DNA of 27,218 nucleotides from an uncultured Desulfurobacterium sp. (GTDB taxonomy: Bacteria > Aquificota > Aquificia > Desulfurobacteriales > Desulfurobacteriaceae), in the NCBI GenBank assembly GCA_913055135.1, contig CAJXJV010000001.1, positions 1 through 27,218 on the forward strand, written 5' to 3'. The translations under genes and the position numbers were made by a program. The notes beneath the pieces were generated by a model, which saw nothing but the letters and a program-made list of their open reading frames with translations, made no database searches and was not told the origin of the DNA. This document shows positions 1 through 27,218 of this stretch, one piece after another (the first letter of the stretch is position 1; each line of letters opens with the position of its first letter).

Positions 1-695
1 TTTTTTTCCTCTAATTCTCTCTTCTTGGCGAGAAGTTTTTCGATTAGTTTGGATGCTTTCTCAGCAGTAATGGTTTCGATATTGACTTTGATGGTTGCTC
101 CGGTCTCTTCGGCAAGCTTCTTTATAAGAGCAATCTGCTTTTCGCTTGCCTTGTTGTTACCGTTACTTTTCTTCTTATCTTTGAATAGTTCGTGTAGCTC
201 TCCTCTATAGGCTTTTCTTCCTATTGAGTATAGAGAGAGAGCCTTCTGTATAGCGTCTGTAACAGAACCTTTTAGTGAATCTCCGGGAGTGTAATTCTCA
301 CTCCCTCCGAAAACTTCTTTAGCTGTGGATGGGTCTATGATCCACAGTCTAATCCTTACATAGGAGAGATAACGAGTTTGAATCTCTCCTTTTTTCTTAA
401 TTTCAACCGGGGTAACATTGTAGTCTAATACCTGATAACCCCAGTTGTTAGCACCCACTACTTTGTTGAGGGCATCGATAACTGATTGAGGTTTGTATCC
501 ATATAGTGTTCTACCACCACGTGCAGGAACTTCCTGAATACCAGAAGTTCCTTCTTTGTCCAAAATCTCATCGATTCGCTGGACTATCTCATTCCAGTAG
601 TCAAGTCCAGTAAATAGTTCTGCTTTCATGGTTTCGGCTTTCATGGTTGCCTCCTGTGTAATGGTTTTTTGGTTTTCAATGGTTTCTACTGCCAT
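1..695 (-). CDS. Rad52-family single-strand annealing protein (partial)
   Basis: The visible 231 codons, open at the left edge, read as a Rad52/Rad22-type single-strand annealing protein, which in phages and mobile elements pairs complementary ssDNA during recombination. Seen in the sequence: a GYKPQSVIDALNKVVGANNW stretch (compare the Rad52 pattern of a YxxxxYVIExLNxxFGxxNW segment) near residues 66-85, then the hallmark KGSVTDAIQKALSLYSIG near 143-158, and a C-terminal SEKQIALIKKLAEE segment that is common in phage annealing proteins. Two in-frame starts are possible: ATG at 695 behind AAGGGAGGTG, and ATG at 644 behind AGGAGG six bases upstream; both sites are strong, so two isoforms differing by 17 residues are conceivable. 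It is read away from the 696-1136 non-coding stretch. If the element is circular, this gene may lie near the ssb gene at the other edge. I am confident of the family, less of the start. Confidence 0.82.
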   Translation of the reverse strand, partial: MAVETIENQKTITQEATMKAETMKAELFTGLDYWNEIVQRIDEILDKEGTSGIQEVPARGGRTLYGYKPQSVIDALNKVVGANNWGYQVLDYNVTPVEIKKKGEIQTRYLSYVRIRLWIIDPSTAKEVFGGSENYTPGDSLKGSVTDAIQKALSLYSIGRKAYRGELHELFKDKKKSNGNNKASEKQIALIKKLAEETGATIKVNIETITAEKASKLIEKLLAKKRELEEK

Positions 696-25154: not shown

Positions 25155-25253
25155 TAGAATGAATTCTAATTCAAGCTTGAGGAACCTGCTCCTCTGGCTG
25201 CCACCAGAGGAGCGGATCTGTATATCCGCAATCGGATTAAGGAGGCAAAAACT
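25155..25253 (+). promoter_or_regulatory. Structured leader of the replication initiator gene
   Basis: This gap between traC and rep can fold tightly. GCTCCTCTGG (25188-25197) and CCAGAGGAGC (25204-25213) form a perfect 10-base stem with the loop CTGCCA. Next, GCGGAT (25212-25217) pairs with ATCCGC (25224-25229), but the same ATCCG can instead pair with CGGAT (25233-25237), directly before the AAGGAGG ribosome site (25239-25245). In addition CTCCT (25189-25193) is complementary to AGGAG of that site. These exclusive pairings suggest control of Rep translation by RNA structure or an antisense RNA. A possible promoter is TTGAAA (25144-25149) with TAATTC 17 bases later; the -10 is poor. Confidence 0.55.
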
Positions 25254-26999
25254 ATGAACAATGTTATTTTAAGGGAAAATATAGACTATTTCAACCCCGA
25301 AAAAATTGAAATTCGGCAGTTTACTTCTGGCTTCTGCCGAATGCCAGATGCCCTCTTCCATATCCCTGAAGAACTCGAAATCAAAAGTTGGAAAGCAAGA
25401 TTCATAGTAGGGTTGTCTTACCTTTATGCTTTGAGCTTCGGTAAAGGAAAAGCACTAACAACGAAAAAAGAATTAATGGAAATATTACAAACCAAAAGCT
25501 CCAGTGTTACAAATGCATTCATCAACAAAGTCAACGAACTATCTAATTTGCTTAAAGCCAAAGCTGAAAAAGCAGGCATTCCTATCGAAGGAGGAGAACT
25601 TATAACACAAAAAGGGAGAAAAGGCGGAACCCAATGTTATCTAATAGACCAAACCATTATAGCCGAAGCTTTCAGACATAAAGTCAACCACGGCGGGACA
25701 TTTGCTTTCTACAATATAGCTCTCCTCCTTCCAATTTCCGCTCAGGCAAAAGCCGTTTTGCTCTATCTCCACCGGAAAGCCAGAGGTGGAAGTCTTCTCG
25801 ACGGAAAAGCTGAAGCCTCTGTTTCAGCAAGGGAACTGGCACAGATTCTTGCGATAGGAACCGGAGGAGGAAGACTGAAAGGCTATCTCTTAGAACTTGA
25901 AGAAGCTGGAATAATAGAAAAAACATCCCGAAGAAAACTCAAATTCAGAATAACCAAGCTGGATGAATGGAATAGAGAAGCTCTACTCAATATCCTACAT
26001 AACTGGAAAGGACATCCATTCCTCAAAAATTGGAAGTTCCCGATTGAGCCAATATCTCCCCAGGAAGATTGCAATGAAAAAAGTCCAATAGGGCGACAAA
26101 AAAAGTCCAATAGGGCGACAATAACAGATGAAAAAAGTCCAATAGGGCGACAAAAAAAGTCCAATAGGGCGACATATAGGAATAAGAATAGGAATAAGAC
26201 AAAAGAAAGGAATAAGTCTATGGAATACGACGCCATATATAACAATGGCGGCGGAACAAAAAACAGTATGGAATCCCTTAACAGAAGAAAAAGCGACAAT
26301 AAGGAAACTCCTTCTCTAAGTAAGCCTGACGGCTTAAATCTAAAGAGTGACGAGCGGAAGTTAGATAAACCTAACATTGCTGACCGTGTGGACCAGAAGG
26401 AGCTGGAGAAGATAAAAGAAGTCTTAAGAGTAATTTTGCCAGAGCTTAAAAGAGCTTATCCAGAAATTTTTACTTCAGAAAACCTGAAAATATTTGAAGA
26501 GTTATATGCTCCAGCACTGAGAAAAATTTACGGAGATGAGTGGTTGGCTTTAGCAGTTATGTATGAGTTGTTTAATAGAAAAGCGCCTCAATATGGCTAT
26601 TCAAGGAAGGTCAATAAGAATTTCTTAGGTTTGCTGATTTCGTTTGCTTTAAAAGATTCTTCATCGGATTTCTGGGAGTTCTACAAGAAATTCAGAAGAG
26701 TTTTTGGATTAGGACTTCAGAAGGTTGAGAATGTAGGACAGAAAGAACAACAAGGAGAGCAATCGGAACCAGGGTTATCTCTTTCTGACCTGAAAGAGTT
26801 CTTCAAGAGAAAGTTAAAAGATAAGAAAACCATTTACACAATGTTTATAGAAAATGGCATTAAGGCTTTAGAGAAGGTTGGTGGTAAGTGGGTTGTGAGA
26901 TGTAAGGACAGTATAACGAGAGATTATGTCTCTAATAACTTTATGGATTTCCTTAAGGAATTTTTGAAGTCTGAAAACATAGAGATTGAGGGGGCTTAG
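25254..26999 (+). CDS. Replication initiator with internal origin
   Basis: A 581-residue protein I read as the plasmid replication initiator. The N-terminal 250 residues hold two winged-helix-like units: one near 45-120 (KALTTKKELMEILQTKSSSV) and one near 155-245 (SAQAKAVLLYLHRKARG... SARELAQILAIGTGGGRLKG... LEEAGIIEKTSRRKLKFRI). A flexible linker (about 272-360) is encoded by four DNA iterons and so repeats the peptides EKSPIGRQ and KKSNRAT twice. A helical region follows (about 375-490), and the last 65 residues (FFKRKLKDKKTIYTMFIENG ... KWVVRCKDSITRDYVSNNFM) resemble DnaA domain I, the part that recruits helicase. AAGGAGG lies eight bases before the ATG. This layout, with DNA-binding N-terminus, ori in the middle and helicase-recruiting C-terminus, recalls lambda O. 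No family name can be given with certainty. Confidence 0.72.
   Translation: MNNVILRENIDYFNPEKIEIRQFTSGFCRMPDALFHIPEELEIKSWKARFIVGLSYLYALSFGKGKALTTKKELMEILQTKSSSVTNAFINKVNELSNLLKAKAEKAGIPIEGGELITQKGRKGGTQCYLIDQTIIAEAFRHKVNHGGTFAFYNIALLLPISAQAKAVLLYLHRKARGGSLLDGKAEASVSARELAQILAIGTGGGRLKGYLLELEEAGIIEKTSRRKLKFRITKLDEWNREALLNILHNWKGHPFLKNWKFPIEPISPQEDCNEKSPIGRQKKSNRATITDEKSPIGRQKKSNRATYRNKNRNKTKERNKSMEYDAIYNNGGGTKNSMESLNRRKSDNKETPSLSKPDGLNLKSDERKLDKPNIADRVDQKELEKIKEVLRVILPELKRAYPEIFTSENLKIFEELYAPALRKIYGDEWLALAVMYELFNRKAPQYGYSRKVNKNFLGLLISFALKDSSSDFWEFYKKFRRVFGLGLQKVENVGQKEQQGEQSEPGLSLSDLKEFFKRKLKDKKTIYTMFIENGIKALEKVGGKWVVRCKDSITRDYVSNNFMDFLKEFLKSENIEIEGA
26077..26216 (+). other. Probable replication origin: four iterons plus AT-rich element inside rep
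   Basis: The 15-base core GTCCAATAGGGCGAC occurs four times without a mismatch, at 26083-26097, 26105-26119, 26137-26151 and 26159-26173, each preceded by a run of six or seven A. Spacings are 22, 32 and 22 bases, close to two, three and two helical turns, so all copies and A-tracts face one side of the helix. An AT-rich purine-biased stretch follows with GGAATAAG three times (26179, 26191, 26209), a fitting site for strand opening. Iterons, phased A-tracts and an AT-rich block beside them are classic origin parts. No DnaA box was recognised. Confidence 0.7.
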
Positions 27000-27218
27000 A
27001 TGGAAAGGAAAGGCTATATCTATTTAAATGAGGTCAAGATCACCGGGAGACTTACGGATGAGGTGAACTACACGAGATTTGAAGGAGAAAAAAATGGTAG
27101 TGTTGCGGAATTTACTATTGCTCACAATCGTAGATGGAAGCCGAAAGAGGGCGAAGACTGGAGGGAGAGCACAAGCTTTTTCAGGGTTAAAGCTTATAAC
27201 GGACTTGCCGAGAAGGTG
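27000..27218 (+). CDS. ssb: Single-stranded DNA-binding protein (partial)
   Basis: The first 73 codons of an SSB protein, cut by the right edge. The OB-fold start is clear: YIYLNEVKITGRLTDEVNYT (6-25), GSVAEFTIAHNRRWKPKEGE (33-52), then STSFFRVKAYNGLAEKV, which matches the common NxVxLxGRLxxDPE... FxLAxNRxW... TxFFxVxxWGxLAE pattern. The ATG at 27000 directly follows the rep stop (TAGATG shares no base but leaves no gap), and the ribosome site GAGGGGG lies in the last codons of rep, so the two are coupled. SSB next to an initiator supports replication and protects ssDNA taken in by conjugation; with the annealing protein at the other edge it may form a recombination module. Confidence 0.9.
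   Translation, partial: MERKGYIYLNEVKITGRLTDEVNYTRFEGEKNGSVAEFTIAHNRRWKPKEGEDWRESTSFFRVKAYNGLAEKV

Follow-up and report, generated by a model that had tools for sequence, protein, structure and literature searches.

Where does a conjugation-type plasmid of a heat-loving deep-sea bacterium (Desulfurobacteriaceae) start its replication, and why does the gene of its putative initiator carry, in the middle of the coding sequence, four identical repeats that are read in more than one frame? An earlier reading of the DNA letters alone (the sequence-only reading) had proposed that these repeats are iterons and that the origin is embedded in the initiator gene, rep. We followed this proposal in the 27,218-nucleotide stretch that carries rep near its end (the window; Table 1) and in the relatives of Rep, and we consider it likely that the plasmid possesses a theta-type origin inside its own initiator gene, which would operate by the mechanism outlined below.

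The ten open reading frames scanned in the window include genes for TraG, TraH, TraC, TrbI, a coupling protein, an actin-like partition protein, Rad52 and a single-strand DNA-binding protein (SSB). Thus, the earlier description of a conjugative, partition-bearing plasmid was borne out by conjugation-type and actin-like partition genes, with no relaxase among these ten frames. The related plasmid pTHEAM01 of Thermovibrio ammonificans is typed as MPF_F but non-mobilizable. In both the window and pTHEAM01, rep lies close behind traC (on pTHEAM01 with a single gene intervening), and a 76,561-base contig of another genome of the same family (G020) also bears a rep homologue. The window genome (G000) consists of 315 contigs and is 89.58% complete; no DnaA of the host was found in it, an empty result that carries no weight. 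The ends of the window are occupied by Rad52 (3-695, minus strand) and SSB (27000-27218, plus strand), whereas on pTHEAM01 the two genes adjoin each other near rep, both on one strand; hence, the contig could come from a rearranged circle. The accessible text of the T. ammonificans genome paper names no plasmid origin (PMC3570795).

Table 1. Features in and around rep (window coordinates).
Feature	Coordinates	Strand	Remarks
Hairpin with 10-bp stem in the rep leader	25188..25213	+	fold z -2.38; 4/200 shuffles fold as well
rep, 581-aa replication initiator	25254..26999	+	open frame; homologue on pTHEAM01
N-terminal tandem winged-helix domain, residues 24-257	25323..26024	+	presumed iteron binder
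Iteron 1	26079..26098	+	KSPIGRQ
Iteron 2	26101..26120	+	KKSNRAT
Iteron 3	26133..26152	+	KSPIGRQ
Iteron 4	26155..26174	+	KKSNRAT
AT-rich second repeat block, AGGAATAAG three times, then CATATATAAC	26175..26244	+	presumed DNA unwinding element
All-helical middle domain, residues 381-484	26394..26705	+	predicted structure
DnaA domain I-like tail, residues 504-581	26763..26996	+	presumed helicase/primosome contact
Single-strand DNA-binding protein gene, directly after rep	27000..27218	+	cut by contig end; Pfam SSB 6.9e-11

Iterons inside rep and in its relatives

The 15-base core GTCCAATAGGGCGAC occurs exactly at 26083, 26105, 26137 and 26159 on the plus strand, always inside rep, and the perfect identity of the four repeats covers 20 bases (AAAAGTCCAATAGGGCGACA), more than had been noticed before. 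Start-to-start distances of 22, 32 and 22 bases set the copies in codon phases 0, 1, 0, 1, so that neighbouring iterons encode different peptides (KSPIGRQ versus KKSNRAT); the 54-base doublet encodes one peptide twice (EKSPIGRQKKSNRAT). The number and spacing of the repeats, their reading in two frames and the peptide-repeating doublet are therefore all as the sequence-only reading had claimed. With up to three mismatches allowed, the whole window holds five matches to the core, a number reached in none of 100 dinucleotide shuffles (mean 0.33, largest 3). Exact core matches also turned up in 98 stretches of genome contigs, one match each in the best 80 of the 98, from many unrelated phyla, and in nine viral contigs as single matches; the genome-contig matches are taken as chance.

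The position of the matches bears on another explanation, namely that Rep binds the repeats within its gene to adjust its own transcription or copy number, and that the origin lies elsewhere, for instance upstream of rep. Iterons also control copy number in many plasmids, and the rep leader is structured; its hairpin possibly controls rep expression. However, the fifth match, with three mismatches, is remote (5985), and none lies directly upstream of rep. We consider such a purely regulatory role improbable, also in view of the AT-rich block and the skew described below. By eye, the rep leaders of pTHEAM01 and of a second contig of the window genome (C35) appear hairpin-like too, with different sequence.

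The protein search, which scored only about 8000 candidates sharing most words and may thus have given an incomplete list of relatives, returned 13 proteins, and genome searches added the Rep of pTHEAM01 and a partial Rep in genome G009. A plasmid search with three queries found pTHEAM01 as the only relative; no relative was confirmed in viral contigs by protein and profile scans, and none was found in phages. The comparison set comprised 15 Reps (that of the window, P0002-P0013, pTHEAM01 and G009); P0001 (99% identical to the window protein), P0014 (a fragment) and two short proteins without the linker (G013 and C196) were left out. Iteron DNA was at hand for four of the 15, and the iterons of the other 11 were inferred from peptides by back-translation.

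Clear repeats were present in 14 of the 15 Reps, in the same linker following a conserved HPFL-like motif, and P0009 showed a suggestive pair only. Hence, iterons are conserved despite divergent linker peptides, as the sequence-only reading had predicted. In the Rep of C35 (P0002; same linker), the iterons are spaced at 22/26/22 with phases 0, 1, 0, 1, and three copies carry the variant CTCC(A/G)ATAGGG(C/A)GACA, the fourth being more diverged. On pTHEAM01, AAATTCCCCAATAGACGGACACC recurs at 29/23/31 in phases 0, 2, 1, 2, which covers all three frames, with 0-1 mismatches between copies of the 23-base word. G009 has five in-frame copies of 21 bases. The proposed whole-turn spacing holds for the window array (about two and three turns), but with spacings of 26 (C35), 29 and 31 (pTHEAM01) and 21 (G009) in the relatives, we do not regard strict helical phasing as a general rule.

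Among the 13 proteins examined by back-translation, off-frame iteron pairs exceeded the 95% shuffle level in P0005, P0006, P0008, P0011 and, marginally, P0001, and stayed below it in P0003, P0009 and P0013, while in P0004 and P0010 unrelated off-frame pairs exceeded it. The clearest pair, CSDRPHK and VPIDLIK, stands 23 bases apart in P0006, the former recurring as CSNRPHK in P0008. P0001 and P0003-P0008 also show a superperiod of 54 bases. Twelve of the 15 linkers are compatible with a common core, YCCNATAGR (three or more sites in eight; none in P0007, P0012 and G009), and the total of 38 sites compares with an expectation of 2.2 from shuffled linkers. Since the core was chosen after the sequences had been seen, this number is descriptive and no test; moreover, one of the five window sites agrees with the core in its peptide but not in its DNA.

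These comparisons allow us to weigh the idea that the linker repeats serve the protein, e.g., as a flexible binding segment, and that their DNA identity reflects recent duplication. The 54-base unit encoding the same peptide twice would fit, as would the arrays of P0010, P0012 and G009, which, being in-frame 21-base repeats, cannot separate selection on DNA from selection on peptide. Nevertheless, copies 22, 23 or 29 bases apart yield unrelated peptides, on pTHEAM01 all three frames are used for a single word, the core is compatible with most linkers although their peptides differ, and the linker is predicted to be disordered. We therefore regard a peptide-level origin of the repeats as very improbable and, in agreement with the sequence-only reading, favour repeats maintained at the DNA level.

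Some further observations concern Reps outside this pattern. Repeat-less homologues number two, both of them short forms, and the stretches examined around them contain no direct repeat of at least 14 bases within 200 bases. One (G013, L125:8989-11383) lacks the DnaA tail as well and lies in a 1.4-Mb contig, so that its element is probably integrated; by eye, the gene that follows resembles a zinc-finger/Toprim primase. The other (C196, L144:1510-2232), the third Rep-like protein of the window genome, consists of the N-domain only. The Reps of C35 (L122) and the window share 72% identity in the N part and 74% in the C part, and their iterons differ slightly; either two coexisting plasmids have diverged in specificity or the bin holds a strain mixture.

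Exchange of Rep modules at the array

Across the 15 Reps, identity in the N part says almost nothing about identity in the C part (Mantel r 0.18, p 0.06). Reps with similar linkers also have similar N parts (r 0.76, p 1e-4), to some extent perhaps because the two are neighbours, and no such tie was seen between linker and C part (r 0.17, p 0.07; partial 0.06). Individual pairs reveal the exchange directly: P0002 and P0005 share 35% identity in N and 99% in C, P0003 and P0012 29% and 72%, while the reverse is seen for P0006 and P0008 (90% and 65%) and for P0012 and G009 (87% and 35%). The second repeat block, judged by eye, sorts with the N part too, being of an RNK type in the window Rep, P0002, P0003, P0004 and P0007, and of a TTS type in P0005, P0006, P0008, P0009, P0011 and pTHEAM01. 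Hence, recognition domain, iterons and AT-rich block behave as one cassette.

Since the halves of rep are exchanged at the position of the array, and conjugation genes are present in the window, the array might not be a vegetative origin at all but an origin of conjugative transfer or some other site of recombination. We give this possibility very little credence: the array sits inside an initiator gene and co-varies with the DNA-binding domain of its product, and the GC skew of pTHEAM01 turns there.

Domains of Rep, the AT-rich block and the putative mechanism

The sequence-only reading had been unable to place the protein in a family, and with the window Rep alone this is understandable, as it matched no family in the libraries searched. 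Predicted structures altered the picture: compared with known folds, the N-domain adopts a pi/RepE-like tandem winged-helix fold, and the tail is a DnaA domain I by both sequence profile and predicted fold. The tail fold was taken from the full-length model; a model of the tail alone without alignment was poor (pLDDT 59.5) and was left out. The domain I tail was detected in 11 of the 15 Reps; it was not detected in P0007 and pTHEAM01, and in P0010 and P0012 its score did not exceed that of shuffles. The Pfam profile DnaA_N matched one of the 15 (E 0.028). The gene following rep on pTHEAM01 was considered as a split-off DnaA tail and rejected, since by eye it shows no such likeness. Judged by eye, the two residues that contact the helicase in E. 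coli appear to be kept neither in the window Rep nor in seven related DnaA proteins. In the accessible part of one report, E. coli DnaA domain I binds the replicative helicase via Glu21 and Phe46 (PMC5448010). A predicted phage protein, "DnaA N-terminal domain containing protein" (A0A6J5SN45), gave a weak fold match (E 0.053), so that arrangements of helix-turn-helix and DnaA_N may exist elsewhere.

PHROG families of replication initiation and of DnaD-like loaders are matched by relatives of the window Rep but not by the window protein; the loader matches lie in the N-domain and linker. Likewise, PF13730 (HTH_36) matched seven of the 15 members at E<=0.1 (best 6e-6), and the lambda O-like profile phrog_345 two of 13 at the same threshold (best 0.0016), neither of them matching the window protein. 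A PDB sequence search gave no usable match.

The claim that the array also shapes the linker of its own presumed binding protein holds in the sequence itself; since the linker is predicted to be disordered and its peptides diverge, the encoded peptide looks like a tolerated by-product.

Directly downstream of the iterons, AGGAATAAG stands at 26178, 26190 and 26208 (positions read by eye). The segment 26174-26213 (AT 0.75) is third among the least stable 40-mers of rep; when the 2716 60-mers of the window are ranked, the AT-rich block comes about 77th. Such a block accompanies the iterons in all four Reps with DNA (window, C35, G009 and, by eye, pTHEAM01), which argues against purely regulatory sites. 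Right after the block, at 26231-26250, we noticed by eye an inverted repeat, CGCCAT-ATATAACA-ATGGCG, located in a conserved YDxIYxGGG stretch of the otherwise poorly conserved linker; this stretch could be a DNA element, not a protein motif. DnaA-box-like words (one mismatch) are dispersed without a cluster at the origin, and Rfam gave no match at gathering level.

In pTHEAM01, which is complete, the detrended cumulative GC skew is lowest at base 1455 and highest at 36882, 46% of the circle apart. The iterons (1560-1665) are about 100 bases from the minimum, and the least stable 40-mer of rep covers 1458-1497. An amplitude as large as this arises in 61 of 2000 shuffles of 1.5-kb blocks and in a fraction of 0.0045 of 500-base-bin shuffles, so that it is only moderately unusual, and the TA skew disagrees, with its minimum at 68007; the GC skew minimum is thus support, not proof, of an in-rep origin, and it counts against an origin remote from the array. 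In the window, an incomplete contig ending at 27.2 kb, the cumulative skew has its minimum at about 16 kb, remains flat to 25.5 kb and rises thereafter.

As far as sequence can tell, the origin is probably embedded in rep, as first proposed; the linker repeats of 14 of the 15 Reps, the use of one DNA word in different frames, the linkage of the repeats to the N-domain, the restriction of repeat-less homologues to short forms, the skew minimum of pTHEAM01 and the initiator-like folds and families all point in this direction. We postulate that the tandem winged-helix domain would bind the four iterons, that the AT-rich repeats just downstream would melt, and that the C-terminal half, ending in DnaA domain I, would recruit the host helicase or primosome, opening theta-type replication. 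The iteron-coded linker would serve as a flexible tether whose peptide is irrelevant, hence the frame in which the DNA word is read would be of no consequence. A specificity cassette made up of N-domain, iterons and AT-rich block would move as one piece and be recombined with different C-terminal halves.

More broadly, we put forward, with belief and doubt evenly balanced, an initiator family of the Aquificota in which a pi/RepE-like domain is fused to DnaA domain I and the origin lies in the hinge; such a protein would bring its own copy of the helicase-recruiting handle of the host, a start free of DnaA would be possible, and recombination in the hinge would swap whole recognition cassettes. 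If so, new incompatibility types could arise by a single exchange that takes in domain, iterons and AT-rich block. We find the two-frame iterons less surprising than the DnaA domain I tail and the freely reassorting cassettes. Since a piece of DnaA can be recognised in the part presumed to recruit, the question of recruitment can be addressed directly in vitro.

Comparison with known initiators

The reading of iterons in two frames, which the sequence-only reading had treated as special, is not peculiar to this plasmid. The four annotated iterons inside lambda gene O are spaced 20/24/23 in phases 0, 2, 2, 1, and in pLS32 the initiator gene contains five repeats spaced 33/24/23/23 in phases 1, 1, 1, 0, 2; we take the latter initiator to be of the RepA_N type and its repeats to be its iterons. 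Lambda O resembles the window Rep in having multi-frame iterons inside the initiator gene, and through P its C-terminal half connects to the helicase, but it belongs to a phage rather than a plasmid, and the window Rep ends in DnaA domain I.

Embedded origins with exchangeable specificity cassettes have been described for lambda and for Gram-positive plasmids; in the accessible part of the account on the latter, RepA_N replicons have iterons central in rep, a winged-helix N-domain, a linker dispensable as protein and a separate C-domain, and the pSK41 rep contains four Rep boxes, its product contacting DnaG primase (PMC5703833). The window Rep shares the iterons within the gene, with their putative origin role, and the winged-helix N-domain, but PF06970 (RepA_N) matched neither the window protein (E<=1) nor the 15 members (E<=0.1), the N-domain is pi/RepE-like, and the tail is a DnaA domain I. 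The same source describes the hybrid pPR9, in which the exchanged region of about 500 bp comprises the origin and an HTH_36 (PF13730) N-domain, joined to a C-domain of the pSK41 kind (PMC5703833). N-domain and putative origin are likewise exchanged as a unit in the present family, in which the PF13730 matches fall on about half of the members and not on the window protein.

The N-domain itself resembles the initiators of the Rep_3 plasmids (pi of R6K, RepE of F), whose tandem winged-helix, iteron-binding fold is predicted for it. Plasmids of this type have iterons of about 22 bases followed by an AT-rich region. Unlike them, the window protein and the 15 members have no match to the Rep_3 profile (PF01051), the window iterons are inside rep, and middle and DnaA-like domains are added. 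With DnaA the protein shares domain I, which in Rep stands at the C-terminus, and no match to an AAA+ ATPase or DnaA domain IV was found in the window protein or the 15 members. No title among the literature matches listed, a set mostly outside the subscription literature, describes a protein that joins a pi/RepE-like domain to a DnaA domain I and whose gene contains the origin. The difference from the known systems is precisely this combination, a C-terminal DnaA domain I included. Hence, the design of an embedded origin with an exchangeable cassette would extend to a thermophilic phylum, built there on a Rep_3-like N-domain and DnaA domain I.
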